Source of the DNA: a virus
DNA: 64,000 bases
Reading direction: 5' to 3' (one strand)
Virus record (IMG/VR): IMGVR_UViG_3300042934_000822
Coordinates: 16,909-80,908 of that record
Part shown: in pieces, positions 44,946 through 61,541 of the stretch
Numbering within the stretch: position 1 is the first letter of the stretch
How the letters are laid out: the number at the start of each line of letters is the position of its first letter
The notes under the pieces: generated by a model
Database searches by the model: none
What the model was told of the DNA's origin: nothing
The model's input: only the letters and a program-made list of their open reading frames with translations
Position numbers and translations under genes: made by a program

Positions 44946-45428
44946 TCACGCCGGTGCAGCCGCGCTTGGCGTGCCGGGATGGGTGAACGCGCCAGCAAGC
45001 CCGTTGCTTTCCACCTGCAGCAGCAACGCGGCATCAAGCCCGAGCTTCTCGCAGACAGCGATAGCAGCGCGCTCGGCAGACTGGGAATTGCTGGCGGTCA
45101 CGCCCCGGCGCATAGCACGGGCCAGGTAGCCGCCAGTGATGTACCGCACGTTGATCTGCACAGCGACAGCGCTTGTCGCGCCAGCGTCCTCCTGGGCAGC
45201 CACTGGGGTGCAGTGTTCCAGGTCAACGAAACCGCGCTTGCCTTCCAGGAACACGATGGCGGTATGGCCACCGGTTACCTGTGCTTCGCTCGAGGTGCGG
45301 CCACGGAAAGTTTCGCCATCGCCGAGGATCTCCTCGAAGCTAACGAGCGTGCCCGGCGGGTTGGCAGCGTTCCACTGGTCACATTGGATTTGAAGCTCGG
45401 CGGGGGTTTTGCGTTTCGGTAAGGGCAT
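44946..45428 (-). CDS. Hypothetical protein with leader-controlled expression
   Basis: The 160-residue protein begins MPLPKRKTPAELQIQCDQWNAANPPGTLVSF. The first part is like a short domain seen in many Pseudomonas phages (GDGETFRGRTSSEAQVTGGHTAIVFLEGKRGFVDLEHCTP). The second half is mixed, ending TPSAAAPA. Its upstream region carries a strong promoter, the ATCAGCCGGATA leader and a 19-bp palindrome. Expression in the early or lysogenic state is therefore likely. The biochemical role is unknown. Confidence 0.6.
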   Translation of the reverse strand: MPLPKRKTPAELQIQCDQWNAANPPGTLVSFEEILGDGETFRGRTSSEAQVTGGHTAIVFLEGKRGFVDLEHCTPVAAQEDAGATSAVAVQINVRYITGGYLARAMRRGVTASNSQSAERAAIAVCEKLGLDAALLLQVESNGLAGAFTHPGTPSAAAPA

Positions 45429-46187: not shown

Positions 46188-47744
46188 TCACTGCAGGTTG
46201 GCCAGCGCCGCCATTGCCTTCTGCAAGGCACTCTCGCGCTTATCCTGCACCAGGTTCTCGCTCTCACCCCGGGCAGGGATGTAGTCGACCTCCTCGAGGT
46301 AGGCCATGGCCACGGTATCGAATAGGTCAGGGGACGAGAGGTTCTCTGCTGCCATGTCCTGCTTACGAGCGATGTGGTACCTGCCAAGCTCGTCCAGGTG
46401 GTAGGGCATCCGGCTAGCCTGGTCGAGTAGATCCTTCTGGTACTTGGCGATGAAGCGCACGGCGCCATCCTTGATGGCTTCAATGGCGTGCACGGTCGAC
46501 TGCGCGCGCTGGTTGAGGAAGCGCTTGCGGTACTCGTTTGAGAAGGGTCTTTCGCCCCAGCGCACGCCTTTGAAGCTGATCCCGCCGCCGTCCAGCTCCA
46601 TCATGCGCTTGAGGAACTGGTTACCCATGCCGTTGGTATCGACCACGATGGTGACGTTGCTGAACGCCGCAGCGTAATCCAGCACCTTGCGCGCCACCGG
46701 GGTCCAGTCCTCAGTGCTGGTGTACACAGGCACGTCGACCACTTCTACGCGGCGCCGATCCTGCATCATGCGGTCACCGTTGCCGATGACCTTGAAGTGG
46801 GTGGCCACCGTTTTGTCCCGTCCCACGCCAGCGGCGACGTCGACCACGATGACGTGCCCATAGGCTTCGCCGTCCAGAATGACGCGCGGCCCCTCGATGA
46901 CACGCTCGATCGCCGCGCGACTGATCAGGTATTTGCTCGAATGGGTCGGGAACATACCCCGGACCTTGATCTGGTACTCAGGGTCGTCCCGGCCGCCGTA
47001 TTGGATGACCTTCGCCTTGATGAAAGGCAGGTCAACCAGCGGGCTGTCCTCGGAACTGAACGTCAGCGCAGTCCACTCGCCGCCCTGCTCCTTGCTCAAG
47101 TTGTGGTGAGTGTCCCGGAAGAACCCACTGTCACGGGTAGGCTGGGACGCCATGATGAAGCGGTTACGCTTGTCGGTCAGTGCGCCGCCGATCACACCGA
47201 AGTTGGCGTCAGGGATACCAGACGCCTCGTCCGCCATCCACAACAGGTAACGCTCATGGGTACCGGCCAGGTTCTCAGGGGAGCCGCGCGGCGCTGTACG
47301 GGTGGTGATGAACCAGGTAGCCGACTTTGTGTTGATGTACACCTTCTCGGCCTGGATGGTGACGTAGTCAGCGATCCACGCGTGCGGACCCTTCCTGATC
47401 TCCGTCAGCAAGTTCGTCATTTCCTTCCACACACCCTCACGCACCGTTTTGAGCTTGGGCGCGGTGATGTAGGTGTTGGAGTTGGGGTAGCAGAACAGAT
47501 GCCAGAAGCCAACCACGCCGAATGAGCGCGTCTTACCGGTACCGTGCCCGGATGCCACGGACACTCGGGCGCCGAACAGACTGGTTTCGTCGAACAGGTC
47601 TTTCTGCTGGTGGGTGACGTCCATGCCGCACACCTCTACCGCGAAGGCGTAGATATCGGCCGCATAGCGTTCTATGAACTCGAGGTGGCGCGGATCCGCG
47701 TCGATAGCGATCTGCTCAACCTTTTGTCTGGATGATATGGCCAT
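46188..47744 (-). CDS. Terminase large subunit (TerL)
   Basis: The 518-residue protein has Walker A GHGTGKT (residues 66-72) and Walker B LLWMADEAS (about 167-175; Asp172, Glu173) in the packaging ATPase. The RNase H-like nuclease has Asp in HVIVVDVAAG (about 295), VVDTNGMG (about 360) and SPDLFDTVAM (about 485). It cuts concatemers and pumps DNA through the portal. It follows a degenerate copy of its own ATPase half. The length is near the usual 500-600. Confidence 0.88.
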   Translation of the reverse strand: MAISSRQKVEQIAIDADPRHLEFIERYAADIYAFAVEVCGMDVTHQQKDLFDETSLFGARVSVASGHGTGKTRSFGVVGFWHLFCYPNSNTYITAPKLKTVREGVWKEMTNLLTEIRKGPHAWIADYVTIQAEKVYINTKSATWFITTRTAPRGSPENLAGTHERYLLWMADEASGIPDANFGVIGGALTDKRNRFIMASQPTRDSGFFRDTHHNLSKEQGGEWTALTFSSEDSPLVDLPFIKAKVIQYGGRDDPEYQIKVRGMFPTHSSKYLISRAAIERVIEGPRVILDGEAYGHVIVVDVAAGVGRDKTVATHFKVIGNGDRMMQDRRRVEVVDVPVYTSTEDWTPVARKVLDYAAAFSNVTIVVDTNGMGNQFLKRMMELDGGGISFKGVRWGERPFSNEYRKRFLNQRAQSTVHAIEAIKDGAVRFIAKYQKDLLDQASRMPYHLDELGRYHIARKQDMAAENLSSPDLFDTVAMAYLEEVDYIPARGESENLVQDKRESALQKAMAALANLQ

Positions 47745-47810
47745 GCTTTTCCTTACGCCCTGGGGCGGGGATTGATCAGCGCCCCACTGTACGGGGCGTT
47801 TGGGAGGGCT

Positions 47811-48650
47811 TTAGCGCAGGGTTTGCCCCAGCGGGGTGTCCTGCAGCAGGGAGGCCAGGTAACCGGCCTCCCTGCTCGTCAGCGGCTTGCCGGCGACCAG
47901 CTCGACGAAGGCACGCACCTGGGCCTGCAGAGGGGGCAGCTGCTGCGGGTTTGCCGGTGGCTTGTCGGCGGCCGGCCTGAAAAAGTCCAGCAGGAAAGTT
48001 GCTGGGCCTGCTGGCGCGGACGTGAACTCAAGATCGAGGACGGGCCAATCTTGGGCACATGCGTTTGCCATGAGGGCCTTGGGCACATGCAGGTCACAGG
48101 CGACGATCAATCCAGTCCCGGGGTGGACCAGGCCAGCCAACAGCGCCGCCAGGCAATTGGCCGGCAGCGTGTCGCCCGCCTCAAACAGCCATAGCAGGTT
48201 GTCGCCGCCATAGCTGGCCAGCTGCTCGGGCGTCTTCGCCGATACCTTGCGCAGGATGATCTGGCTGTCCTTGTCCACGAACCAACCGCTGGCACGGTGC
48301 TTGACGGCCCGCGCCAGCCAGTAGAAACGCCCTTGCTGCATGCAGGCGAGCAACGTCTTGATGGCGAGATTAGTTTGACAGGCGCTGGCTGTGGGCGAGC
48401 CGATCAAGACGGTGGAGCGCTGGCGGGTGGCGACCTGCCAAAGCGCAATCACCGCCAGTAGGCGCGCCTGGCGCTCTGGACTGCCTACGTTGTGCATCAC
48501 CAGCCGGCGCATGCCCTGCTTGAGTGCCTTGGCTGCCTCGCTGAGCTTGCTACCAGGCTCAATGGCGCAGACCTCAATCATGAAGGCCGGCAGGTCGTTG
48601 TGGTAGCGCTCTGCGAAGGCTTGCCAACGCAGATCATCGTACAGGCTCAT
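47811..48650 (-). CDS. Degenerate TerL ATPase-domain paralogue
   Basis: The 279-residue protein aligns by eye to the TerL ATPase half: FAERYHNDLPAFMIEVCAIEP matches FIERYAADIYAFAVEVCGMD, the IALWQ...STVLIGSPTAS region matches the TerL FWHLF...NTYITAPKLK region, and TPEQLASYGGDNLLWLFEAGD matches SPENLAGTHERYLLWMADEAS. The Walker A place reads NVGSPER instead of GHGTGKT, and the Walker B acidic pair is changed. It is thus probably inactive as a motor, and may regulate packaging. It has no nuclease half. A separate C-terminal tail replaces it. It lies 66 bp upstream of TerL. Confidence 0.65.
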   Translation of the reverse strand: MSLYDDLRWQAFAERYHNDLPAFMIEVCAIEPGSKLSEAAKALKQGMRRLVMHNVGSPERQARLLAVIALWQVATRQRSTVLIGSPTASACQTNLAIKTLLACMQQGRFYWLARAVKHRASGWFVDKDSQIILRKVSAKTPEQLASYGGDNLLWLFEAGDTLPANCLAALLAGLVHPGTGLIVACDLHVPKALMANACAQDWPVLDLEFTSAPAGPATFLLDFFRPAADKPPANPQQLPPLQAQVRAFVELVAGKPLTSREAGYLASLLQDTPLGQTLR

Positions 48651-49234
48651 CGTCCAGCTCCTGCGCCCTGATGGCGTTCACGATCGGCAATCAGCAGCGC
48701 CACGGCCTTGGTGATGGACTCGGTGGCGTCGCAGCGCTTCATGGGGCTGTTTGGCCATGGCCAGAACCTCTGGAAGGCAAAGGCTTGAACGCCTGCGGCC
48801 TGGAACACGTAGCACCCGGCCGCGCGGATCAGCTCGTGTTTGGTGTACTGCATATCCCAGCCGAGGGAGAACCCTTCCATGGTCTGTTGGCGCTGGCGCT
48901 CCATGACCATGGCCATGGCCGTCGGGCTGGCGCCAGGCACGTTGGCGAACAGTGGCATGGGCGCCTGCCACCCTTGGCGTACCTTAGCCTCCCAGTCGGG
49001 CGAGCCAGGGCCGGTCGGGCGCGAATAGACCACGCTGTGTGGCTTGTTGGCGCGGCGTGTAGCCCAGACGACGGGCGTGATGCCGGCGTCGCCCAGGGGC
49101 TTGGCCACGCTGAGCCATACCTGGTAGGTCGCCTGGGTTGCGGGGTTACAGTACCCATCACCATCCTGCTCGAGGTCGGTGATGCCGGCCTGCTGGCAGG
49201 AGTGTTCGAAGTCCGCGCGCTCCAGGAACATCAT
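48647..49234 (-). CDS. Hypothetical protein in the terminase region
   Basis: The ATG at 49234 (MMFLERADFEHSCQQAG) gives 195 residues and overlaps the upstream gene by 4 bp (next Met at 49231 is also possible). It contains VVWATRRANKPHSVVYSRP and GFSLGWDMQYTKHELIRAAGCYVFQAAG, and ends with a polar, basic tail. No metal or nucleotide motif is seen. The overlap with the terminase paralogue at the 3' end ties it to the same transcription unit. Function is unknown. Confidence 0.6.
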   Translation of the reverse strand: MMFLERADFEHSCQQAGITDLEQDGDGYCNPATQATYQVWLSVAKPLGDAGITPVVWATRRANKPHSVVYSRPTGPGSPDWEAKVRQGWQAPMPLFANVPGASPTAMAMVMERQRQQTMEGFSLGWDMQYTKHELIRAAGCYVFQAAGVQAFAFQRFWPWPNSPMKRCDATESITKAVALLIADRERHQGAGAGR

Positions 49235-49455
49235 GCAACACCCGCCAGGGGCGATGCCTCGATGATCTGCCAGCGATCGGGCTTCAATTGCCGGCGCTCG
49301 AAGCACTCTACCGCGCCAGCTGGACTGCGCAGATACAGCTTCTCGCCAATCTCCAGCTCGACCTGGTGGCGTTCTTGGGTTTTCAGGTCCACTACGGCGA
49401 TCGACGGGCGATCGCGGGTGCTGCCTGCGTTGGTCAGAAATGGAGTCGTTTGCAT
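49231..49455 (-). CDS. Small hypothetical protein
   Basis: The ATG at 49455 (MQTTPFLTNAG) gives 74 residues with two beta-rich parts (IAVVDLKTQERHQVELEIGEKLYLRSPAG and VECFERRQLKPDRWQIIEAS). It lies 2 bp after the zinc-ribbon gene and overlaps the next gene by 4 bp. The sequence looks like a small beta-barrel or SH3-like domain, a guess from the strand pattern. Confidence 0.55.
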   Translation of the reverse strand: MQTTPFLTNAGSTRDRPSIAVVDLKTQERHQVELEIGEKLYLRSPAGAVECFERRQLKPDRWQIIEASPLAGVA

Positions 49456-49457
49456 GG

Positions 49458-49631
49458 TCAAGGCATCTTCAAGGACAGTTGAGCGCGGGTGCACTCGTTG
49501 AAACCGTGCGGGAGGGCCTTGGTGGCCCGCTCGCAGTTGCGGCGCCCGCAGTCTTGGCAGTAGGTGTAGGCGGTAGGGCGGCCTCGGTGGCGCCATACGA
49601 CACGCGCACCGTCGCAATAACGGCACTGCAA
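49458..49631 (-). CDS. Short zinc-ribbon protein with a TTG start
   Basis: A TTG at 49631 preceded by GAGGGAG (about 5 bases away) opens a 57-codon frame. The protein has CRYC near the start and CQDC about 24 residues later, with further cysteines (RNCERA, NECTR), a typical zinc-ribbon layout. Both flanking genes are spaced 2-13 bp from it, which supports a true gene in the operon. Such small ribbons often act as adaptors in phage transcription or terminase regions. Confidence 0.6.
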   Translation of the reverse strand: MQCRYCDGARVVWRHRGRPTAYTYCQDCGRRNCERATKALPHGFNECTRAQLSLKMP

Positions 49632-49644
49632 TGGGTGCTCCCTC

Positions 49645-50427
49645 TTAATCCGCGTACTGGGGGAGACGCGAAGCCATCATCTGATCCGCGTAGGCCCACC
49701 GGCGGACAGCGAAGGCGGCCAGGTCCTCATCCTCGAGCATAAGGAGCGGGCAGTGGATGGCGAAGTCATCGCGCAGGTCCTGCAAGTGCTCGAGGTCCGC
49801 TGATTCCAGGCGCTTGCTGGCATCTTCCACACCTGCAGCGACTTGGGGCTTGTTGGTGTCGACAGCGTCAGACGTGGAGGTCGGGCAGGTGACCACTGTC
49901 TTATCCTGGCCGGCGCCATAGTCGATATGGGTTGGCGGCATTACCCCCACCGGTAGCACATGAAAGTTGCGCGGACCTGCACGCTTGCCTTCGTACCACG
50001 TCTCGAACGTAGCCTTCTCGCTGACCTCGACGTCGGCCGGCAGCTCAGGGTTGCTAAGCCGGCATGTGACGTTGACCTGGTGAGGCTCTACAGGCACGAC
50101 GACTACCGGTACAGCACAGACACCCTCAGCCACAGGCACCTTACTGGTGCGGCCGATCTGCCTGGCCAGCTGGCGCGAACGCTCGGCTGGCGACTTGGTG
50201 AAGTCCTCGATGACTGGACGCAGCGCTACTGGCGTCTTGATATGGCCACCTGCGCCCTTCTGAATCGGCGCCCAGCCGGCCGAGGTGCCCACGAACAGAA
50301 CCTGGTGCTCATTGCCCTTACGGACGCGGCACTTGTTGTCTGTCAGGTACTGGCGGAAGGCGGGCAGCTGCTCGAGCGTGAGCAGGCCGGTGTCGTTGGT
50401 CTTGATCATGGTCAGGGCACTGCTCAT
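49645..50427 (-). CDS. Hypothetical protein in the terminase region
   Basis: The 260-residue protein begins MSSALTMIKTNDTGLLTLEQLPAFRQYLTDNKCRVRKGNEHQVLFV, a small helical/strand domain, followed by LRPVIEDFTKSPAERSRQLARQIGR, Pro/Val-rich strands, and a charged C-terminus. The C-terminal part (DDFAIHCPLLMLEDEDLAAFAVRRWAYADQMM) is helical. It overlaps the HTH gene upstream by 4 bp. I do not recognise the family. Confidence 0.6.
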   Translation of the reverse strand: MSSALTMIKTNDTGLLTLEQLPAFRQYLTDNKCRVRKGNEHQVLFVGTSAGWAPIQKGAGGHIKTPVALRPVIEDFTKSPAERSRQLARQIGRTSKVPVAEGVCAVPVVVVPVEPHQVNVTCRLSNPELPADVEVSEKATFETWYEGKRAGPRNFHVLPVGVMPPTHIDYGAGQDKTVVTCPTSTSDAVDTNKPQVAAGVEDASKRLESADLEHLQDLRDDFAIHCPLLMLEDEDLAAFAVRRWAYADQMMASRLPQYAD

Positions 50428-50735
50428 TGAATCTGCTCCTGCGTGCTGGCGGCCACATACGGCCTCAGGTTGGCGGCGCGACCCGGGCGTCGGGTCGTCG
50501 TCTTCTCAGTTTTCAGGGCAATAGGCTTGACCCATAGCTGCCCCGTCTTGAACAAGTACAACTCCCACAAACCCAGCTTGATTTCGGCTTTCCCTTCCTC
50601 GTAGCTCTGCCAGGATCGGCGGCTGACGTGGATGAGCACGGCGCTTTCGCGCTGGCTCAAGCCTGCGTGCTTGCGGGAAGCGCGAATGGCTTCTGGGGCG
50701 GGTATCAAGCCGGCCACGGACGCTGTAGCGGTCAT
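50424..50735 (-). CDS. XRE-type helix-turn-helix regulator
   Basis: The 103-residue protein carries an HTH from about residue 12 to 65: PAPEAIRASRKHAGLSQRESAVLIHVSRRSWQSYEEGKAEIKLGLWELYLFKTGQ. The length and shape match small phage transcription regulators (Cro/CII-like). It lies between the terminase small subunit and the next gene with 4-bp overlaps on both sides, so it is produced with packaging genes and may time their expression. Confidence 0.7.
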   Translation of the reverse strand: MTATASVAGLIPAPEAIRASRKHAGLSQRESAVLIHVSRRSWQSYEEGKAEIKLGLWELYLFKTGQLWVKPIALKTEKTTTRRPGRAANLRPYVAASTQEQIQ

Positions 50736-51814
50736 TCCAATTGTCCTTGTTCGATCAAGCGCCGGCGCTCTTGCATGGCCGCGCGCTCTCGCTCTGTCTT
50801 CTCTTGGGCGGCCGCGATACGGGCGTCCAGTTCTTCGGTGCTTGGGCCCTGCTGAACGACCACAGCCGGTTCGACGTGCAGGTCGAATATCTTGGCCACC
50901 AGCTCGCGGTAAGCCTTCTGGGAGCCAGCACGGACCTTGATGCCGTCCTTGGTCTCCTCAACACCCTCATACAGCGCCAGAGCGGCTGGGCTGTAATTGC
51001 GAGAGTCATGGAAGAAGGTGTACTGGTACCCCTCGCCGGCGCATTCCGGACACTCAGGGTGGGGAGGCTCGCGCTTGTCGTAACCCAGGCCACCAAGCTC
51101 ATCGAACGGTGGCAGGGTCTTGCCTTCCTTGGAGGCGTCCAGCGCGGCCGCATCGTACTCAGCGCGGCGCTCCTCCATTTCCCGGGGCGTGTGCTGATAC
51201 CGATGGTCAATGCCGTGGCAGTAGCGGCAGCACGCGCGGCGCAGCTCGGATAGCTCTCGAGCGTCGGCGAAGGCGGCGGCATGGATGACGCCGATGGTCT
51301 GGTTCTGCACGTCCGCCGTGCGCTTGAACATTTCGACCTGGCGCGCGGCGTAGTACGGGTGGCCCTTAACCTTTTTTAACAGCCTGCTGGCGCCTGCTGC
51401 TGCCACGTAATCGCTCTTGGCGGTGTAGCCCGCTTCACGGTACGCCCAGGTGGCGTTGTAGCTCGCCAGGTACAGGTCGACGAACAGAGCCATCTTGGGG
51501 CTCAGGCCGTGCAACTCCGCGAGCGCCAAGGCTTCCAGCTGTTTTTCAGAGAGCGGCACGGGATTTTTGACGACCGTCGTGCCTTGCTGACCAGGTGCGC
51601 CGCCGGCAGTGGCGGCCGAGGCTTTCGTGGCACCTGGTGCGGCGGATTTTCGAGCCTTTGCGGGGGCTTTCCCGGGTGCCTTTTTGCCGCCCGTTGCCGT
51701 GTTCACCTTAACAGCGGCAGCAGGACGGGGGGATTTAGCACCAGGCTTCCCCCTGGACGCGGATAGTTGATCCGCACCCTTTGCTTCACCGTCAGTCTTT
51801 GGGATTCGTGGCAT
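50732..51814 (-). CDS. Terminase small subunit-like protein
   Basis: The ATG at 51814 has GAGGT upstream and gives 360 residues. The Ala/Lys/Pro-rich N-terminus (about 75 residues) is followed by a Terminase_2-type HTH region: MALFVDLYLASYNATWAYREAGYTAKSDYVAAAGASRLLKK, then VKGHPYY. A metal-binding knuckle follows (CCRYCHG... and CPECAGEGY). The C-terminus is coiled coil. This resembles small subunits that bind the pac site, though it is longer than usual (150-250 residues) because of the added zinc region. Confidence 0.65.
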   Translation of the reverse strand: MPRIPKTDGEAKGADQLSASRGKPGAKSPRPAAAVKVNTATGGKKAPGKAPAKARKSAAPGATKASAATAGGAPGQQGTTVVKNPVPLSEKQLEALALAELHGLSPKMALFVDLYLASYNATWAYREAGYTAKSDYVAAAGASRLLKKVKGHPYYAARQVEMFKRTADVQNQTIGVIHAAAFADARELSELRRACCRYCHGIDHRYQHTPREMEERRAEYDAAALDASKEGKTLPPFDELGGLGYDKREPPHPECPECAGEGYQYTFFHDSRNYSPAALALYEGVEETKDGIKVRAGSQKAYRELVAKIFDLHVEPAVVVQQGPSTEELDARIAAAQEKTERERAAMQERRRLIEQGQLE

Positions 51815-51890
51815 GGCTACCTCAAGGCGCACTTTGTTCGATACTGGACGTGGTCAGAGGGCCAACTTCCTGCGCCTCCTGCACGCCTGT

Positions 51891-51912
51891 AAAAAAGCCC
51901 GCATGTGCGGGC
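51891..51912 (-). terminator. Rho-independent terminator in the 51.9-kb leader region
   Basis: On the minus strand GCCCGCA-CA-TGCGGGC is followed by TTTTTT. Placed upstream of TerS, it could end repressor-region transcripts or attenuate packaging-gene expression. Confidence 0.75.
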
Positions 51913-52252
51913 CCTCTCACTTCTTCCTGATACAGGGCATGCAGGCTGGTACCCGCACACCACTTCCAGACTCGGGAACGTCTCTGGCCAGACGCGCAAT
52001 GCAGCCAACAGCCCCATCCCTACACGGTTATCCATGCTTCTGGTGTTTGAGGGCCGATTTGCACCCCTCACATGCCCTCTTTCCCAGGCATGCGGCTCTA
52101 CCGGTCAACAGCACCAGCAGGCCACCAACAACGAGCGACCGCGCAACGCACCCGTTAGGCGGGTCAGTCCTCACACAGCACTCACAACACTCACAGAACA
52201 CAGCAAGTCACGCCCGCGCCGGCCCCAGAAGGGGTTAGCCGCGGCTCCCACT

Positions 52253-52291
52253 GCATAAAGCAACGCTCTGGCTGAAAGCGTTCCTTTATGC
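52253..52291. repeat. 15-bp inverted repeat downstream of the repressor gene
   Basis: GCATAAAGCAACGCT (52253-52267) pairs with AAGCGTTCCTTTATGC (52276-52291) with one mismatch and a short loop. There is no T-run, so it is not a simple terminator; it could be a protein-binding site or an RNA structure. Confidence 0.6.
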
Positions 52292-52296
52292 GGTGA

Positions 52297-53064
52297 TCAT
52301 CCGAACAGCAGCAGCTGCCGAATCTTTTCCTTCATTACGTCCGGCGCGATCGCCACCGGCTCAACCTCGTCATGCGCCATCTGTTCGCGCTTCACCCGCT
52401 TGGAATGGTCTTGCATGGTCACATGAAGCTCGCCCACCAAACGGACCACCTTTGCGCCACCGCGCACGTCTTCAAACTCTGGCTGGCGACACATCACCTC
52501 GAGCGCGCCCATCAGGTCCACGACCTTGGTGGCCACCGTACCCAAAAGGACGCGGTCCAGACTGAACCCCTCGAGCATGATCGCGCTGCGGGTGGCCAGG
52601 GCCTGGACCATGTTCTGGAACTCGCCACTCACAGCCTCGGCCATCACGCCGCACAGCACCGCCTGGTTGCCTTCCTCGGGCGCGCGGCCTATGTCGTCGT
52701 GCAGGCCCATCAGGTAGTCGATCTGCACGCAGTAGAGCTTGGCCATGCGCCGCAGATTGTTGAGGCTTGGCGCGCGCCGGCTGTTCTCGAACAGGCTGAC
52801 CTGCGTCACGCCACGGTGTGCGAGCGCCACCCCGGCCGTGCTCTCGGTGAAACCCGCCAGCTTGCGAGCTTTGCGCAGGCGCGGACCCATGATTGCCATC
52901 AGTTCTGCTTCGGCTTGGCGCGCGACGTCGGACGGACTGGAACCCTCGCCCAGATCCTCGTTTTCACCAAAAAGGGACGCTGAGGAGTCAAAACCCCCCT
53001 TTTGACCCACTTTTTGAGCCCCATGGGCCTCTTGAAAACTATCCGCGTACAAATTCGCGTCCAT
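52297..53064 (-). CDS. Lambda-type repressor/regulator
   Basis: The ATG at 53064 has AGGAGG five bases upstream and gives 255 residues. An HTH lies at about residues 58-115 (IMGPRLRKARKLAGFTESTAGVALAHRGVTQVSLFENSRRAPSLNNLRRMAKLY), preceded by a 55-residue N-terminal tail and followed by an alpha-helical domain likely to mediate dimer formation. One copy of the TTTGTACGCGGATAG element is 30 bp upstream of the start and a second forms codons 4-10 (NLYADSF), so it probably controls itself and the other copies. This is the best candidate for a prophage repressor in the window. Confidence 0.7.
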   Translation of the reverse strand: MDANLYADSFQEAHGAQKVGQKGGFDSSASLFGENEDLGEGSSPSDVARQAEAELMAIMGPRLRKARKLAGFTESTAGVALAHRGVTQVSLFENSRRAPSLNNLRRMAKLYCVQIDYLMGLHDDIGRAPEEGNQAVLCGVMAEAVSGEFQNMVQALATRSAIMLEGFSLDRVLLGTVATKVVDLMGALEVMCRQPEFEDVRGGAKVVRLVGELHVTMQDHSKRVKREQMAHDEVEPVAIAPDVMKEKIRQLLLFG

Positions 53065-53119
53065 GACTGCCTCCTGATGCGATTCGGGCCGGAGTAAAAA
53101 CTATCCGCGTACACAAATC
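53033..53119 (-). promoter_or_regulatory. Pair of TTTGTACGCGGATAG elements around the repressor start
   Basis: Copies at 53033-53054 (inside the gene) and 53096-53119 (promoter) are 62 bp apart and share (T)TTGT(GT)ACGCGGATAGTTTT on the minus strand. The upstream copy could supply GATAGT as the -10. Looping between two sites would be possible. Confidence 0.55.
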
Positions 53120-53332
53120 AAGGCATTGGCGTAATTCCTTCGCTATCGAAGTGAACTAAAGGCCAACATCCTGCGCCCCCTATGTATGCTGGGTTTGACG
53201 CATGCTTATCATTCGTGAAGGGATCTCAGGCGCGCGAATTCAGCCGCGCGCGTGGGTACGATCTACTGGTGTGGGGTTGGTGATGCCAGATTGCCAGCCT
53301 TCGCGACGGTATACGCCGCTGACTGGCGAGTA

Positions 53333-53388
53333 GTCCCACAATGACCGGATGGTTTGTGGGACGCCACCTGTATGGGCAACCAGGTGGC
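53333..53388. other. Two adjacent perfect hairpins in the 53.1-53.4 kb gap
   Basis: GTCCCACAA/TTGTGGGAC (53333-53362, 9-bp arms) is followed without a gap by GCCACCTG/CAGGTGGC (53363-53388, 8-bp arms). The 53065-53404 gap otherwise contains the repressor promoter and a GGCCAACATCCTGCGCC segment. I see no protein-coding signal. A small structured RNA or a terminator pair for the DUF1064-like gene is possible. Confidence 0.5.
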
Positions 53389-53404
53389 TCAAGAAGGAGT
53401 CAAA

Positions 53405-53935
53405 TCACTCGCGCACAAGCTCGATATCCCAACCGCCACCCTTGCTCTTGGGGACCGGATAGACCACGCGGAACGCAAACGGGTACTCCTGGGCTGCGAT
53501 CTTCATCTTTACCTTGGCGTCGTCCGTGTAGATGGCTTTGGCGCCCTTCACGTCGTGCATTTCCAGCGCCCCGTCCGCCAGCAGCAACATGAAGTCAGGG
53601 GTCAGGCTGGTTTGAGGCGCCAGCAGCAGCTTGCAGGGTTCGAAGCGCCACCACAGCACCTCCCCTGCCAGCTTGAGCTGGTCCAGGTACGCGGCATACC
53701 TGGTCTCGGTGTCGTTCATGGTGCCCTTGGCCAGCCTACCCTTTGCCTGCATGCGCTCGATGCTGGAGGGCTTGGCTTTGGTGGCGATCGCTGAGGGCGG
53801 TACTGCAGGTGGCGTCGTGGCTTGCCCGGGCTGAGCCGGTACCTTTGGCTTGGCGCCGGCGCGGCCTTGTTCACGGACCTTGTACCCAGGCGGCAAGCGC
53901 TGCAGGGCTTCTTCGGTCAACCATCGTTTGCTCAT
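53405..53935 (-). CDS. PD-(D/E)XK nuclease (DUF1064-like)
   Basis: The 176-residue protein has an Ala/Pro/Lys-rich N-terminus (about 70 residues) and a nuclease-like domain: NDTETRYAAYLDQLKLAGEVLWWRFEP, then TPDFMLLLADGALEMHDVKGAK (Asp, and E-x-x-D-x-K of the PD-(D/E)XK fold), then YPFAFRVVYP. This is the DUF1064 type found in phage replication regions, probably acting on branched or damaged DNA. It lies 58 bp downstream of a TerL-nuclease-like gene in the early operon. Confidence 0.75.
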   Translation of the reverse strand: MSKRWLTEEALQRLPPGYKVREQGRAGAKPKVPAQPGQATTPPAVPPSAIATKAKPSSIERMQAKGRLAKGTMNDTETRYAAYLDQLKLAGEVLWWRFEPCKLLLAPQTSLTPDFMLLLADGALEMHDVKGAKAIYTDDAKVKMKIAAQEYPFAFRVVYPVPKSKGGGWDIELVRE

Positions 53936-53993
53936 GTGTTTGAGTCCTTTCAGGCTGGCCGGTCAGCCATCGACGTAGCTGTCCAACGATTAG

Positions 53994-55055
53994 TCATGGC
54001 TGCAGTTCCAGGAAGGCCATACACAGAGTGTCGAACAACGGGCTAGGCTTAGAACAAGGTGTGCGCTGTGCGTTATAGCGCCCCTCGCTGTCAAAGGTCA
54101 TGGTGTAGGGCAACCTCATACCCTCGCCTAAGATCGCTCGCCTGTCTTGCTCATCATTGTGAGCAGCCAGGCGACCACCCCGTACCGCCTCAGCCGCAGA
54201 TACCAGGCCCATAGCTCTCAGGCTCTGGAACCTCTTTCTGTTTTCTTTGTGCCGTGGCGCTGAACGCCAATCGACCTGGCGAACCTTGACGCCCTCGATT
54301 CTCAGCACCTCCGCGAAGCAAGTTCCCAGATTGCTGCCGTCCACCACGGCAAACGGATCATTCATGCAGGTCATCATTCCGGCGATGCGCCGCGCCTCGA
54401 CCCAAGGATCAAGCGTATGCGTATGGGCTAGGGTGGCCATCACTTCGACCTTGAGCGGTTTCCTGCCTGCACTCATGGCGTCGCCAGCCACCCGGTAGTG
54501 CATTGCGATCAAGGTTTCGCCCTCGATGAAGACACCCACAACATCACGCGCATCTGGCCCTGTCAGTTCCCCTGGTCCGAACTCTGGCATCAAGCAGCGG
54601 CGAAGTTGCTCCTCTTCGATTCGAAGTTTGGAAGCCGAGTCAGTAGCTGGCTTCCACCCCTCATTCACCGTCAGGCGGACCTTTTGGGCTTGCAGCTCAA
54701 GCACCTGAGTTTTGAGCACCTGACTACGCTCCACCAGGTTCACCGCCAGCATTTCGAGCGCAGCCTGGTAGGTCAGGTGCCCCTGCTGAGCAAGGCGCAA
54801 TGCGTTATTGATCTCTGGGCAGGTATAGGCCAGCGCGTTCAGGCGGCCACGGTAGCCCTCCAGCTGTTGATCCCCAGCGGCTCTCGCCTCCTCCTGCCCG
54901 GTCAGGTCTTTCAGACGCTCTAGCATCTGATCGGCCAGTGTGCAGTGGTCCACAGCATCAAGGATTGGCATAGGCACGAACTCCACCCCCATCTTGGCCA
55001 TGGCCTCTGCCGCGCCGAGGGAGGTTTTCAGCAGGTGTGGGTGAGCAGGCTTCAC
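53994..55055 (-). CDS. Protein with a degenerate TerL nuclease-like domain
   Basis: A GTG at 55055 overlapping the previous stop (GTGA) gives 353 residues. The N-terminal half is helical/coiled (QLEGYRGRLNALAYTCPEINNAL, EMLAVNLVERSQVLKTQVLEL). From about residue 165 the protein aligns by eye to the TerL nuclease: FAVVDGSNLGTCFAEVL matches TIVVDTNGMGNQFLKRM, RHKENRKRFQSLRA matches FSNEYRKRFLNQRA, MRLPYTMTFDSEGRYNA matches SRMPYHLDELGRYHI, and PSPLFDTLCMAFLE matches SPDLFDTVAMAYLE. The first catalytic Asp is missing. There is no ATPase half. It may be a packaging accessory or an old recombination product. Confidence 0.6.
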   Translation of the reverse strand: MKPAHPHLLKTSLGAAEAMAKMGVEFVPMPILDAVDHCTLADQMLERLKDLTGQEEARAAGDQQLEGYRGRLNALAYTCPEINNALRLAQQGHLTYQAALEMLAVNLVERSQVLKTQVLELQAQKVRLTVNEGWKPATDSASKLRIEEEQLRRCLMPEFGPGELTGPDARDVVGVFIEGETLIAMHYRVAGDAMSAGRKPLKVEVMATLAHTHTLDPWVEARRIAGMMTCMNDPFAVVDGSNLGTCFAEVLRIEGVKVRQVDWRSAPRHKENRKRFQSLRAMGLVSAAEAVRGGRLAAHNDEQDRRAILGEGMRLPYTMTFDSEGRYNAQRTPCSKPSPLFDTLCMAFLELQP

Positions 55056-55965: not shown

Positions 55966-56505
55966 CTACGGGCCAGTAGGAAGTGGGATCCTGAATGGAA
56001 TACCTCTCAGGTTGCGTCGATAGTCTCCATTGGGGCCATCGTATCTGTCGTATTCCACGAAGGTGACGTTCTCGCCCGCCAGCTCCTCGTCGATGATTGC
56101 GCTGATGATGTTCCAATCGCCCCCGCCCCGGGCAGCGCCGATCGCCGGTACCGCGAAGCGCAGGCCCTGGCCACCGTACTCGGCGCGCAGGCCCGCGAAG
56201 ACCGATCGCACGGCGGTGTACTGGGTCAGTGGCCCGCCACCTGGGCCTACACCTGCCCAGTTGAACTGGGTGTAGGCGTTGACGATGACGCCCTGGGCCA
56301 CGATGGCCTTGGAGTAGGTACCCAGCTTGGCGGGGTCATGGATAGGCGTCTGCATGTCCGCCTGCAGCGCCTCGGGGAATGCCTGGCTGATTGTGCGAGC
56401 GATGCCGTCGTCCATGTTGCAGTGGCAGTTCTGGCCATGGACGATGACGTCGAACCGGCCTGCTTTGAAAAGGGCCACCAGGTCGCCACGGATTGAGTGC
56501 AGCAT
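55966..56505 (-). CDS. Macro-domain protein (ADP-ribose/ADP-ribose-1''-phosphate binding)
   Basis: The ATG at 56505 gives 179 residues, a whole macro domain. Seen motifs: VIVHGQNCHCNMDDGIARTISQAFPEALQAD (the ADP-ribose-binding N-x-N region and phosphate loop) and GLRFAVPAIGAARGGGDWNIISAII. It lacks a membrane or secretion signal. Such domains remove or sense ADP-ribose, so in a phage it may blunt NAD-consuming host defence or process tRNA-splicing by-products. It is spaced one base from the preceding stop. Confidence 0.75.
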   Translation of the reverse strand: MLHSIRGDLVALFKAGRFDVIVHGQNCHCNMDDGIARTISQAFPEALQADMQTPIHDPAKLGTYSKAIVAQGVIVNAYTQFNWAGVGPGGGPLTQYTAVRSVFAGLRAEYGGQGLRFAVPAIGAARGGGDWNIISAIIDEELAGENVTFVEYDRYDGPNGDYRRNLRGIPFRIPLPTGP

Positions 56506-56506
56506 T

Positions 56507-57283
56507 TCAGTTGTCTCCTTTGCTAGCCAGAGCGGCGCGGGCCATCCAGAACTTCTCAGCCGTATCAAGCCTCCCCTCGTTGAGGTATGGGATGCCGAGC
56601 AAGGCTTTTCCGAACTCCGCCCGTTCGTCGATCTCGACTGGCGCACTCGGCTGCGACGTCAGGTTTCCAGCCCGGGCAGCGAGGCAATTGCTGCACAGTT
56701 CGCCGGAATGGATGTGATCGTTCCTGGCATCCACCCAGTTATGCGCGCAAGCGCTCGGCTCTGCGCTGGCGGATAGGTTGGCTTCGATGCGGTGATGCAG
56801 GTCTATCGACTCGGCTGTTGAAAAAACGTCGTCCCATAGCAACGCGTTTGTATTGACCACGCCCTGCAGCAACTGGCCTCGCTCGGCCACCTGAGCGCGA
56901 GCATTGTTGCGCTCAAACGTCAGCCGTCCGGCTGTTCCTCTCCACTTGGCAGCCTCGCATCGCAGCCGCTCAACCTCGGCACGATCGGCAAGCGGGCCAA
57001 GCGGCCTGATATCGACCGTGTGACCCACCGCACGATAGTGGGCGGCTGTTGCGTCAGCCTTGTTATGGGTCCGCGCAAGCAACGTCGTGTATCCAGACAC
57101 CTCAATTTCGAATGCCACCGGCTCGCCTTGGCCCTGCTGGGCTGGCTGGCCGAAAACGTTCTCTGCAATGAGGTCTGCGCTGATTTCGTTAAGCGCCTGC
57201 ACCTGCTCGAGCGCAGCCGTGAGCGACTCGAGGGTGAAGGTTCGGGTTCCGTGGGTGCTGCTGGGTCGTTTTTCTTGGGGCAT
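56507..57283 (-). CDS. Hypothetical protein with Cys/His cluster
   Basis: The 258-residue protein begins MPQEKRPSSTHGTRTFTLES. Residues 50-95 form a small domain with FEIEVSGYTTLLARTHNKADATAAHYRAVGHTVDI. A coiled segment follows, then a conserved ACAHNWVDARNDHIHSGELCSNCLAAR region (Cys/His pairs, probably zinc-binding) found in many Pseudomonas phage proteins. Function is unknown. It lies 14 bp downstream of the m5C methyltransferase gene. Confidence 0.6.
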   Translation of the reverse strand: MPQEKRPSSTHGTRTFTLESLTAALEQVQALNEISADLIAENVFGQPAQQGQGEPVAFEIEVSGYTTLLARTHNKADATAAHYRAVGHTVDIRPLGPLADRAEVERLRCEAAKWRGTAGRLTFERNNARAQVAERGQLLQGVVNTNALLWDDVFSTAESIDLHHRIEANLSASAEPSACAHNWVDARNDHIHSGELCSNCLAARAGNLTSQPSAPVEIDERAEFGKALLGIPYLNEGRLDTAEKFWMARAALASKGDN

Positions 57284-57297
57284 GGGGTGCTCCTTGC

Positions 57298-58221
57298 CTA
57301 TGCGGCTTCAAGTAGGGCTTCGATGACGCGCTGGCCGGCCAGCGGCGGAACTGCATTGCCTGCCATGTGCATGGTCAGCCGGTGGTTATCCGGGCGCCGA
57401 GTGTCGGCAGGAAAGGACTGCGCGGCCAGGGCCTCGCTGGCGCTGAGCATCCGCATCCGCCCGCCGTCGACCAGTGCCCAGCGATCCAAGGTGGTGATGG
57501 TGCCGATCGGGCGGTTCATGTCGCGCCCGGTCAGCCCAGACCCCTTGCCGTAGTAGGGCATGATGAACCGCTCGCCGAACCGTGCCCGGCCGTTGCGCAC
57601 GCGGTCGAGCGTGGCCTGGGCTCGGCCCGGCTTCTCGATTGCCGACCAGCGCCCAGCATCAAAGTCCAGGAAACTGGCGGCCGGGATGTGCTGGCGCTGC
57701 TGCAGGTTGAGCATCAGCGGTGCCCGGCTGCGGGTGATGACCAGGAACAGGCGCACCCGGTGCTGCGGCACGCCGAGGTCGGCGCAGTCCACCACATGCG
57801 GCGAGGCCTGGTAGCCCAGGGCCTGAACCGCGGCCAGCCAAGCTGGGTAAAGCGCCCAGTCGGTGAACTCGGGCACGTTCTCCACAAGCGCGGCTGGCGG
57901 CCTGTGGAATTCCAGCGCCGACACTACCGCCCAGGCTGTCGAGCGCGAAGAGTCATGCTGCGGGTTGCCGGAAGACTTGCCGCGCGCTTTCGAGTGGCCC
58001 TGGCAGCACGGCGAGGCCAGCAGCAGGTCATGCGCTGGCACCTGCTCCCAGCGCGCCTGGTGAAGATCCTGGCAAACGTGCTGGGTGTCGGGATGGTTGG
58101 CGCTGTGCCATTCGACGGCGGCCGGCCAGTGGTTTGCCGCCCATAGAACCTGGACGCCTGCGGCGCGCGCGCCGGTGCTCCATCCACCTAAACCGGCGAA
58201 CAGGTCGATTGCTGTTGGCAT
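57298..58221 (-). CDS. DNA (cytosine-5) methyltransferase
   Basis: The ATG at 58221 (GAGGT upstream) gives 307 residues. All key motifs are present: I, DLFAGLGGWSTG; IV, LASPCCQGHS with the catalytic Cys; VI, ENVPEF; VIII, QHRVRLF; and X, GNAVPPLAGQR. The target-recognition region (about residues 170-230) is short. It should methylate host-like sites on phage DNA against restriction, or regulate expression. No matching endonuclease gene is next to it, so it is an orphan enzyme. Confidence 0.9.
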   Translation of the reverse strand: MPTAIDLFAGLGGWSTGARAAGVQVLWAANHWPAAVEWHSANHPDTQHVCQDLHQARWEQVPAHDLLLASPCCQGHSKARGKSSGNPQHDSSRSTAWAVVSALEFHRPPAALVENVPEFTDWALYPAWLAAVQALGYQASPHVVDCADLGVPQHRVRLFLVITRSRAPLMLNLQQRQHIPAASFLDFDAGRWSAIEKPGRAQATLDRVRNGRARFGERFIMPYYGKGSGLTGRDMNRPIGTITTLDRWALVDGGRMRMLSASEALAAQSFPADTRRPDNHRLTMHMAGNAVPPLAGQRVIEALLEAA

Positions 58222-58229
58222 GGGATACC

Positions 58230-59009
58230 TCAAGCCTGAGTGAGCTGCAGTGGATGCTCGCCACCGGTGGCCAGCCCTGGGTTGATCTCTACGCGCTGCC
58301 CGGCCAGCAGGCCGGCAATCTGCGCTTCCAGGTCCAGCTCGATCTCGGGATTCTTGCGGGCTTTGCCTATCTCCTTGCCTGCTAGGTACTGCTCGATCAG
58401 AGCTTTGTCCTGAGCTTCAACCGCGACCAGGTCGCGGCCGCTTGCGCGGCTCGGCAGGGCGGCATCCTCTTCGCCGCGCGGCACCAGGTCGTGGATCTTG
58501 CTGTACACCGCCGAGACCCATGCGAGTGCGAAGTGGTTGCCGGCGGTCTCGGGCGAGTAGCGACTGCGGCGCTGCCCGGCCCTGACCTGCGATACGTACT
58601 CACGCCGCGCGGCGGTCAGCTTGGCCAGCAGCGCCTCATAGGCGTACATGGCGATTTGCGGGGCAGGCGTCACGCCGACGAACTGCGCGCGCGCCACGAC
58701 GCGGCCGGCAGCCTTGCTCCAGCGCTTCACGTCCAGGGGGCGCACGCCGAATGCTCTTGCCACGATCGCGCTGAGTTGCCTGTCCCATGTTGGTCGGCGA
58801 GTGATTCGGTATTCCTTCGAGTCAACCTCGCCGACGTCGCTCAGCCGAACATCAACCTCGGTCAGGCGGTATTCGCGCATCAGCGCCTGGGCCTGGCGCA
58901 TCGCGGTCGCGGCTTCGGTTTCGTTGGAGCTGGCTGATAGGGCCAGGCAGCGTTTGATCTTGCGGATCACGCGCTCGAGCTTGGCGTCATCGATTTTCTT
59001 GGCAGTCAT
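58230..59009 (-). CDS. DUF2786-family protein
   Basis: The 259-residue protein begins MTAKKIDDAKLERVIRKIKRCLALSASSNETEAATAMRQAQALMREYRLTEVDV, the N-terminal helical region of DUF2786 phage proteins. A middle domain (SKEYRITRRPTWDRQLSAIVARAFGV) and a helix-rich C-terminus follow. DUF2786 proteins are common in phages and have unknown function, possibly nucleic-acid related. It overlaps nothing and is 8 bp from the m5C gene. Confidence 0.7.
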   Translation of the reverse strand: MTAKKIDDAKLERVIRKIKRCLALSASSNETEAATAMRQAQALMREYRLTEVDVRLSDVGEVDSKEYRITRRPTWDRQLSAIVARAFGVRPLDVKRWSKAAGRVVARAQFVGVTPAPQIAMYAYEALLAKLTAARREYVSQVRAGQRRSRYSPETAGNHFALAWVSAVYSKIHDLVPRGEEDAALPSRASGRDLVAVEAQDKALIEQYLAGKEIGKARKNPEIELDLEAQIAGLLAGQRVEINPGLATGGEHPLQLTQA

Positions 59010-59054
59010 GGGCGATCCTCGCCGGTTGGCGTGAAAGAAATTGAGAGGGGAGCG

Positions 59055-60005
59055 CTACTCGCAGAGGCCGTAGGCCGAGGAGCAACTGTGCTGGCTATCG
59101 GCGCGGGCGATCAGGTCGACCATGTCGAATTGGCGACCGCCGCGGGCCGTATTGGCCCACTTGACCATCCGGTCGATTCCATGAGTGGCCTGTGTGATGT
59201 TGTCGTTCGCATGCACGGTCGGATCGTTTACGGCCGGAAAGAACGTGGCGGCGCCACGCTTACTGGCGATGCTCACTAGGCGCTCCCACTCGCGCACCCT
59301 GGCGACCTCTTCTGGCCACCTGGAGGCAATCTCGCGTAGCTCGTCCTTTGCGCACATGATGCATGGCATGCAGCCGACGCGATTGCACCCCTGGAGGTAC
59401 AGCGGGTTTGGCTTGATTCCTGCGGCGCGGTGGGCTTCGAATACGGCCCGGACGGGCCACTTCAAAATCGGTCGATAGTTGAACAGGCCGCCACCCACCT
59501 CGTCACATTCCGGCAGGTAGCGGCGGTTGAGAGATTCATCGGCGCGCACGCCCTGCCACGACACAATCATGCTGTCGCCGTCCATCAGCGGGAGAAACAC
59601 CTGCTCGATGATCGGGTTGCGTTTGAGTTCGTCGGTGCAAAAGCGAGTCTTCGACCCAGGGAAGCGACCCTTCCAGAGGCAAAGGTCGAGGAAAGGGTTT
59701 CCGGTCGGATGCAGCACATCCAGAGCGGCCAGCACGATGCTTTCGGGCACCCCCTGGGACCGCCACTTCGTTTCGATGAACTTGCGCTTGCCAGCGATCT
59801 GCCTGGCGAAGTCCGCCTTGACCCAACGGATCGGCACGCCCGTGGCTTCGGCCAGGTAGTGCACGTAGTCATAGGTGGCCGGGTGTTCATGCCCAGTGTC
59901 AGCGAACACAGCACTGAGATTGGGCACTTCCAGCTCACGGGCGACCAGCAGCGTGGCGGTGCTGTCTTTACCGCCGCTGATGCTGACGATGTTGTGTTCG
60001 CTCAT
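59055..60005 (-). CDS. PAPS-reductase-like (PP-loop) protein
   Basis: The 316-residue protein has the PP-loop SGGKDSTA at residues 10-17, the strand VFADTGHEHPATYDYV, and a cysteine motif GCNRVGCMPCIMCAKDEL (about residues 215-232), as in phosphoadenosine phosphosulfate reductase-family and DndC-like enzymes. It probably adenylates a substrate and moves sulfur. In phages this could modify nucleic acids or sulfur metabolism. The C-terminal HSCSSAYGLCE adds two more Cys. It overlaps the next gene by 4 bp. Confidence 0.75.
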   Translation of the reverse strand: MSEHNIVSISGGKDSTATLLVARELEVPNLSAVFADTGHEHPATYDYVHYLAEATGVPIRWVKADFARQIAGKRKFIETKWRSQGVPESIVLAALDVLHPTGNPFLDLCLWKGRFPGSKTRFCTDELKRNPIIEQVFLPLMDGDSMIVSWQGVRADESLNRRYLPECDEVGGGLFNYRPILKWPVRAVFEAHRAAGIKPNPLYLQGCNRVGCMPCIMCAKDELREIASRWPEEVARVREWERLVSIASKRGAATFFPAVNDPTVHANDNITQATHGIDRMVKWANTARGGRQFDMVDLIARADSQHSCSSAYGLCE

Positions 60006-60394
60006 GCCTGCATCACTACGGTCGGGATCTCCATCGATTCGCCGATGCTGCGCAGGACAACCAGCCGACAGGCCGCCTCGAGGTGACCGGTACCAGGCGC
60101 CGAGGTCATCAGGTCACGCTTGGAGTAAGCGACGTAGCTGGACAGGCCCAAGGGCGTGCAGTCGAGGGGGTTGAAGCAGATATCGTGCTCGGCCAGCAAA
60201 GCGCCGCCGGCGCGCCAATCTGAGGTCGGTGAGTACTTATCCCGAGTCGAGATCAGGTTGAAGCGCACACACTGGCCCGCCAGGTCGAAGGTGATAGGCA
60301 GCTTCTGGGCGATACCCACCGCCCAGTCGAGGGCCAGGCCGGTCAGTTCCAGCGTGTTCACTCGGACCGTGTCCAATTTCCGGGCGGCGCTCAT
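60002..60394 (-). CDS. DUF2591-like phage protein
   Basis: The 130-residue protein matches the DUF2591/NinX-like pattern: VNTLELTGLALDWAVGIAQKLP near the start, then SPTSDWRAGGALLAEHDICFNP, and the C-terminal LEAACRLVVLRSIGESMEIPTVVMQA. Its neighbour upstream has the same layout, and the two overlap by 4 bp, suggesting a tandem duplication. Function unknown; such proteins occur in early regions. Confidence 0.65.
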   Translation of the reverse strand: MSAARKLDTVRVNTLELTGLALDWAVGIAQKLPITFDLAGQCVRFNLISTRDKYSPTSDWRAGGALLAEHDICFNPLDCTPLGLSSYVAYSKRDLMTSAPGTGHLEAACRLVVLRSIGESMEIPTVVMQA

Positions 60395-60798
60395 TGGGAC
60401 ACCACCAGCGCCGCAGGCACGTCGACATGGTTGCCATGCTTCGCCCGCACCAGAGCACGCAGGACAGCCACGCCCTTCGAGGAGCCTATACCGACCGAGT
60501 CCGGCGTAGCGCTGGCGTAGTACTGCTTACCATCAGGCATCTGACCCCAGCCGCCTTCGGGCTCCAGGCACTCGCCCAACTCAACCAGGTGAGCGTCGAC
60601 CAGCTCCCACATTTGCGCGGCATTGGTCAGAGGTGCCCACTCCAGCGATCGGAAGTGCGCCATGGCAACAGTAGGGTGCTGACCTTCCTCAGCTGCAGGA
60701 ACGATGACCAAGTCCTGGCCAGCCACGACGCCGGCGGCGTACTCAAGGGGCGCACCGTCGAGGGTCTGGGTTTCAACAGTCACTTTCGCGTCGATCAT
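60391..60798 (-). CDS. DUF2591-like phage protein, second copy
   Basis: The ATG at 60798 (MIDAKVTVETQTLDG) gives 135 residues. The order of features is that of the next gene: PLEYAAGVVAGQDLVIV, WAPLTNAAQMWELVDAHLVELG, then VLRALVRAKHGNHVDVPAALVV at the end. It is coupled to its neighbours on both sides by 4-bp overlaps. A long frame upstream in the same register is the shadow of the 60795 gene. Function unknown. Confidence 0.6.
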   Translation of the reverse strand: MIDAKVTVETQTLDGAPLEYAAGVVAGQDLVIVPAAEEGQHPTVAMAHFRSLEWAPLTNAAQMWELVDAHLVELGECLEPEGGWGQMPDGKQYYASATPDSVGIGSSKGVAVLRALVRAKHGNHVDVPAALVVSQ

Positions 60799-61541
60799 TG
60801 CGCAGTACCTTGCGTCTTTGTGGCCCGAGGGCGCTTTTGCTTGATAGGCACGCCATCTGCTGGCGCTGTGGAGGTTCCAGCAAAGGCTGTGTTGCCGCCG
60901 CTTTCGAAATTGGAGGGGGAGCCCTCGACCAGGAACGGTTCGACCAGGTGCCAGGTCCACCTGCCGTTGGTGGCCTGTGTCAGCCAGTTCGCCCAGGCGG
61001 GCGCATCCTCCCATCGAGGTGGGGGCTTGATTCGGGTTCTGGCTTTTGCCGGCGCACGCGTGGGCTTTGGCTTGCCTGGCGCCAGCTTGGCTGGCCTGGG
61101 TAGGCCTTTCTCCTCGGCTTCGGCTGCCTCCCGCACGCGCAGGCCCTGTTCGAAGATCTTGCTGACCGTGCGAGAGCCCAAGCCGTCCTCGGGCATGATT
61201 CCGCGATCGCAGTGAGGGCAGCACGGAAGATCCGCGCGCGAGCGCCACACGCTTTCAACCTGCTTGGCCGCCTTGAGGTGGAGGCTCAACTGGCTAGCCT
61301 CATGGACCGCGGTCTTTTCGCTTTCAAGGCGATCCACCTGGCGCTTCCAGTCCGTCGCCAGCATCTGCAGCGCCCAGTACGCGGATACCTGTGATTCGCA
61401 GTCCATGCACTTGACCACCTCGCCGACGTCATCAAGCCGAATACGCTTGTGCTGGCAGCCTTTCACGCGTCGGGCGTGATCATCCTTGAGCCTGGCGATC
61501 TGCAGATCGGCGAACTGTACAACGTTGGATAAGTCGCTCAT
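60795..61541 (-). CDS. Hypothetical protein with zinc-binding cysteines
   Basis: The 248-residue protein has two Cys-rich sites: GCQHKRIRLDDVGEVVKCMDCESQVSAYWALQML (residues 27-60) and LPCCPHCDRGIMPEDGLGSRTVSKIF (about 105-130), then a Lys/Pro/Ala-rich tail. Both look like zinc knuckles. The first resembles a domain frequent in Pseudomonas phages. Ribosome site AGGGAG. Its promoter carries the TTTGTACGCGGAT element, linking it to the repressor regulon. Confidence 0.6.
   Translation of the reverse strand: MSDLSNVVQFADLQIARLKDDHARRVKGCQHKRIRLDDVGEVVKCMDCESQVSAYWALQMLATDWKRQVDRLESEKTAVHEASQLSLHLKAAKQVESVWRSRADLPCCPHCDRGIMPEDGLGSRTVSKIFEQGLRVREAAEAEEKGLPRPAKLAPGKPKPTRAPAKARTRIKPPPRWEDAPAWANWLTQATNGRWTWHLVEPFLVEGSPSNFESGGNTAFAGTSTAPADGVPIKQKRPRATKTQGTAQ

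Follow-up and report, generated by a model that had tools for sequence, protein, structure and literature searches.

Single-domain pseudo-enzymes derived from the large terminase subunit, predicted to lack catalysis, in P1-like Pseudomonas phage-plasmids

In tailed phages, the motor that packages DNA is regarded as a homomeric ring of the large terminase subunit, TerL, aided by the small subunit, TerS, which the N-terminal segment of TerL contacts in phages such as lambda. The motor of T4 accepts inactive subunits, packaging then being slower and interrupted by pauses (PMC8589836), and phi29 gp16 has a vestigial nuclease domain that retains DNA binding (PMC7672431). Here, two proteins are described that are encoded, along with an intact TerL, in a stretch of 64,000 nt (the window), the greater part of the 80.9 kb IMG/VR record IMGVR_UViG_3300042934_000822: P0002, corresponding to the ATPase half of TerL, and P0003, corresponding to its nuclease half. 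The element is a P1-like Pseudomonas phage-plasmid, as indicated by its PacB-type TerL, a P1-type portal (PHROG 1497), antirestriction proteins (Hdf- and DarB-like) and genes for replication and partition (a RepA initiator, PF10134, and ParA); among named relatives, pKF715C, a plasmid of P. putida, is the closest, with 87% TerL identity. The two halves belong to a lineage-specific set of TerL-derived pseudo-enzymes of such phage-plasmids, in which catalysis is predicted, from the residues lost, to have been abolished.

The intact TerL of the window (PacB-like, 518 amino acids, family PHROG 5902; 46188-47744, minus strand) has every catalytic motif in place. The ATPase half, of 279 amino acids, lies at 47811-48650 on the same strand, with a TerL-like part at about residues 6-208 (48027-48635). 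BLASTP aligns it with the window TerL over 273 columns that cover TerL 17-278 (E=5e-11, 22% identity), and it also matches PHROG 5902 (E=2.4e-4). When hidden Markov models (HMMs), built separately from the N- and C-terminal TerL domains of eleven genomes, were run against all open reading frames (ORFs), with reversed ORFs as the null, the N-domain model found P0002 at E=2.1e-13, the best reversed match being at E=1.1. The Walker A motif GHGTGKT has become GSPERQA, the Walker B acids DE have become EA (LLWLFEA), and R153, the probable arginine finger, is replaced by alanine. The C-domain model gave no match in P0002, so that the C-terminal RNase H nuclease domain was not found; the C-terminal tail of about 35 residues (..FVELVAGKPLTSREAGYL..QTLR; 47814-47921, minus strand) is not clearly of TerL origin.

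The nuclease half (353 amino acids; 53994-55055, minus strand) contains a TerL nuclease-like part with the RNase H fold at residues 183-350 (54006-54509, minus strand), which aligns with TerL 313-484 (E=4e-17, 30% identity) and is matched by the C-domain model at E=4.4e-24 (best reversed ORF, E=2.5). The equivalent of the catalytic D302 is valine, and those of D369 and D476 are present. An N-terminal ATPase domain was not found in P0003, its N-terminus (residues 1-56; 54888-55055, minus strand) being instead a DUF1382 domain (Pfam E=2.8e-10). A sequence-only reading of this DNA had described P0002 as an ATPase half without Walker A and the Walker B acids, P0003 as a nuclease half with two of the three aspartates, and each as lacking the other half. 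All of this is borne out, and what that reading overlooked is the DUF1382 part of P0003. Proteins with DUF1382 and no nuclease half are found in relatives (L003 45-584, L014 743-1279).

The same reading had proposed that profile comparison, structure prediction and conservation in related genomes should decide the matter, and all three agree with it. Both proteins match TerL-domain HMMs, with nulls at E of at least 1. AlphaFold2 gave for P0002 a model with a mean predicted local distance difference test score (pLDDT) of 82.5, for which the top Foldseek matches in the PDB are Sf6 gp2 (E=7e-5) and HK97 TerL (E=6e-4), T4 gp17 being found as well; for P0003, pLDDT exceeds 80 in most 10-residue blocks from residue 171 onward, and the top match is the G20c TerL nuclease (E=5e-6). 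These fold matches are to be taken as confirmation and not as independent evidence, since TerL sequences were among the AlphaFold2 input rows. The structural matches of the ATPase half include the phage TerL bound by Avs3 (8dgc), which, together with rapid evolution, would suit a role of the halves as anti-defence decoys, namely free TerL domains that occupy the host Avs sensors of the TerL fold without triggering them; such a domain could, however, equally trigger Avs, and we consider this highly improbable.

Loss of the catalytic residues extends to the relatives. K71 and T72 of Walker A and D172 of Walker B are absent in all 13 scorable ATPase halves, G66, Q47 and Q201 are likewise never kept, E173 is kept once and R153 is lost, while R19, F23, F34, W81, P96 and W123 are kept in 100%. 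In the nuclease halves D302 is kept in none of 18, D369 in 56% and D476 in 44%. The halves are therefore not terminases, since their catalytic motifs are lost. A terL gene split, or interrupted by an intein, and rejoined in trans can be ruled out, because catalytic residues are missing from both halves and an intact TerL is encoded at 46188-47744.

Relatives were sought in 28 loci from TerL scans and six plasmid records, with HMM scans of their ORFs and of the whole records; they comprise plasmids of isolates (pKF715C and DR133) as well as IMG/VR contigs. They were reached only via TerL: single-protein searches of viral contigs with P0002 and P0003 returned no relatives, a phage collection returned none for P0002, and genome contigs scanned with TerL alone gave no matches. 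ATPase halves occur in 14 records, in every one directly upstream of terL (the window, L003, pKF715C, L058, L061, L062, L063, DR133 (CP048608, L010/L065), L066, L067, L070, L075, L076 and L007); that of L007 is a truncated fragment that lacks the Walker A region and has E at position 172. In a survey of 299 Pseudomonas genomes, three had any TerL-like match and one of these (L076) an ATPase half. At the P0002 site of L005 (9772-9933) and L006 (9772-9936) the ATPase half is absent and a small ORF of about 55 amino acids retains only its tail (AFIELVAGKPLTPxQA..QT).

The nuclease halves, 18 in 13 records, occupy at least five contexts. They are free-standing just downstream of terL in L003, L005 and L006; fused to DUF1382 in the window; inserted mid-protein (group c1) in a homologue of the window gene 49645-50427 (minus strand) in DR133, L066, L070, L075 and L076; embedded (group c2), in six records, in a protein that is more degenerate and encoded downstream of terL; part of a homologue (L086 5556-6830, in the L059 genome) of the window gene 44946-45428 (minus strand); or free-standing, with a serine-rich tail and distant from terL, in CP018759 and L087. 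At least three different neighbouring genes carry a nuclease half by fusion or insertion. This half has moved among several neighbouring proteins and been joined to them, in the manner of a mobile module. As for the free-standing copies, a serine/glycine-rich C-terminal tail (SSYDSGSSGYSSYSS...) is seen, distant from terL, at L087 5994-7031 and L025 3932-4954, and in those of L005 (11601-12485) and L006 (11567-12454) a C-terminal extension is conserved (GASSGDTLRLLxEV) that neither TerL nor the L003 copy has.

The earlier suggestion of a fixed split pair does not hold, since the halves often occur without each other: ATPase halves stand without a nuclease half in pKF715C, L058, L061, L062 and L063, and nuclease halves without an ATPase half in G003, G004, G007, W02 and G015. 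HMM scans found neither half in L060, L064, CP070504, Burkholderia pBVIE05, Xanthomonas phage Rb1, Ideonella, Acinetobacter phage ABMM1 and a P1-like plasmid of E. albertii. Second TerL places on plasmids of E. coli M719 and Vibrio campbellii were considered as dead halves and rejected, being frame-broken second copies of ordinary TerL. Such copies, seen on the P1-like plasmids NZ_AP023436.1 (L094, L098) and NZ_CP050473.1 (L095, L097), differ from the dead halves in that the catalytic motifs are intact in the pieces. The 114 kb circular plasmid record CP018759.1 carries two TerL copies with identical scores near its two ends (13930-15513 and 108172-109755), as if terminal redundancy had been left untrimmed in the assembly.

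Decay following duplication of terL in this lineage, leaving functionless broken copies on their way to loss, would account for the truncated ATPase half in G005, for the tail that alone remains in G003 and G004, for the several relatives without halves, and for branches of the halves that are long relative to TerL. Against it, reading frames of 220-430 codons have stayed open in genomes that have diverged widely, the gene order is the same in six DR133-type genomes, and the halves have starts linked to the gene upstream of them: for P0002, as for its homologues in L003, L004 and L010, the start lies within the stop codon of that gene (ATGA, a 4 bp overlap; in the window, a gene for 219 amino acids at 48647-49306, minus strand), and the P0003 start overlaps the stop codon of its own upstream gene as GTGA. 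Furthermore, pairwise codon models tested against omega=1 gave omega values of 0.12-0.26 for unsaturated pairs of ATPase halves and of 0.08-0.16 for the less diverged c1/c2 pairs of nuclease halves (p<1e-8 in both), as compared with 0.03-0.07 for TerL in the same genomes. Purifying selection in the relatives thus indicates that the halves are not simply decaying pseudogenes; decay is largely refuted for the groups tested, and we regard it as improbable overall. Conservation and selection together make a non-enzymatic function likely, which may, as suggested earlier, be regulation of packaging, pac recognition or some other role on DNA, and the proposal that both proteins are pseudo-enzymes made from TerL domains stands.

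How the halves arose is less clear from their trees. The ATPase halves are monophyletic (bootstrap 100) and placed within the P1-like Pseudomonas/Burkholderia TerLs. The nuclease halves fall in at least five groups whose weak deep nodes fit one origin or several. Insertion of an intact terL into an older terL would leave an ATPase half upstream and a nuclease half downstream, the arrangement seen in L003. This idea is appealing but unproved, and is weakened by these deep nodes and by the absence of TerL residues of about 237-265 from both halves. ATPase halves end near TerL residue 236 and free nuclease halves start near 266-272, so that the split follows the domain border, with the linker in neither half. 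Retention of the copies for DNA recombination was rejected, as they are too divergent.

As to function, we lean, tentatively, towards the possibility that the halves act by binding and not by chemistry. The ATPase half would bind TerS or join TerL in its assembly, as a partner or competitor without catalysis of its own, thereby tuning the initiation or the rate of packaging; the nuclease half would be a dead RNase H-fold module, likely still able to bind DNA or the motor and to bring its fusion partner there. Homology, fold, conservation, loss of the catalytic columns, purifying selection and the start overlaps with the upstream gene were all counted in favour, as were the published results on T4 (PMC8589836) and on phi29 gp16 (PMC7672431). 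The best-kept segment of the ATPase halves corresponds to TerL residues 14-45 (47% identity to TerL, 18-38% elsewhere), which is not the most conserved part within TerL itself. Since this N-terminal segment is best retained, and the fold is kept while catalytic residues are dropped, a partner or competitor in packaging initiation would be the most likely role of the ATPase half. Several observations weigh against such binding roles. The halves do not always occur together, the close relatives L060, L064 and CP070504 lack both, and the ATPase half is truncated in G005, which makes the halves dispensable; no packaging role is known for the genes in which the nuclease halves reside; folding alone could explain why the N-terminal segment was kept; and, for the window's own halves, the dN/dS distances are saturated. 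A more far-reaching version, in which the dead halves would bind TerS, TerL, the portal or pac to set the start and speed of packaging, as parts of a heteromeric machine or as a dedicated brake, with the nuclease half as a portable unit that targets other phage proteins to the motor, is doubtful.

The slowing of the T4 motor by inactive subunits (PMC8589836) would suit interference as well as regulation, in that dead halves might be dominant-negative parts poisoning the terminase of superinfecting phages or satellites and so protecting the resident phage-plasmid; rapid divergence and patchy presence are in keeping with such an arms race, which we nevertheless deem unlikely, as the halves are located in the terminase region of the phage itself and should then affect its own TerL as well. 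For the nuclease half, the neighbourhood may point to yet another use. The gene next to that of P0003 (53405-53935) is Holliday-junction resolvase-like, the nuclease domains of TerL are similar to RuvC (Foldseek comparison; also PMC5389553), and early genes, DUF1382 among them, carry the modules as fusions, all of which would fit exaptation outside packaging: the dead RNase H-fold half would serve proteins of recombination or replication as a branched-DNA-binding module, and the ATPase half would be an unrelated scaffold. This is rather unlikely, given that the ATPase half is always directly beside terL.

Further features of the region deserve mention. TerS (Terminase_2) is encoded at 50732-51832 on the minus strand. 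The gap between the ATPase half and terL (47745-47810, minus strand) holds a GC-rich stem; such stems, located after the ATPase half, or what remains of it, and before terL, are found in the window, L003, L004, L005, L010, L058 and L066, with z-scores of -1.6 to -3.3. In L058 the gap contains a terminator-like hairpin with a T run (GGGCCGGTAATTCGGCCCTTTTTG), less clear in L010, and an Rfam search found no RNA family. In several relatives TerL is interrupted near Walker A (about residue 65-69) by an insert of 140-400 amino acids (L012 11986-14262, L063 9962-12280, L064 9965-12295, L072-L074, L077 and L009 682-2673), probably an intein, as its annotation in CP070504 is that of a Hint-domain homing endonuclease. 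The stretch upstream of the terminase region (55966-61248) encodes a cytosine DNA methylase (57298-58233), a DUF2786 protein (58230-59009) and a PAPS-reductase-like protein (59055-60005).

In the open-access literature, to which the search was confined, no report was found in which an intact TerL is accompanied by TerL halves that are paralogous, split or inactive, in agreement with the earlier impression that no phage had been described in this way. To our knowledge, no natural non-catalytic paralogues of the packaging motor were known before, and the conserved dead halves would be the first. They suggest an undescribed kind of packaging partner or regulator, and offer ready-made parts for separating the contacts of the ATPase domain from those of the nuclease domain; the nuclease half, carried by several unrelated genes, clearly illustrates how an enzyme domain of a virus has become a mobile module, with binding as its predicted activity.

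Among known systems, DUF1382 (PF07131) corresponds to the N-terminal 56 residues of P0003, but its known members have about 60 amino acids, whereas in P0003 the domain is extended and joined to a nuclease half of TerL. With TerL of the P1 PacB type (PHROG 5902 / PHROG 2) P0002 has the ATPase domain in common, and P0003 the nuclease domain, in sequence as in fold, and both lie in the terL neighbourhood; unlike TerL, they are single-domain proteins that have lost Walker A, Walker B and the first nuclease aspartate, and they are found alongside an intact TerL. The vestigial C-terminal nuclease domain of phi29 gp16 (PMC7672431) is likewise a TerL-type RNase H domain that survived loss of catalysis, but it is part of a working motor ATPase, whereas the nuclease half is separate, additional to an intact TerL and fused elsewhere. 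Finally, T4 gp17 motors doped with ATPase-dead subunits (PMC8589836) illustrate that a ring can work, more slowly, with inactive subunits; there, the mixture is one of laboratory mutants, whereas here the inactive paralogue is naturally encoded and is devoid of the nuclease domain.

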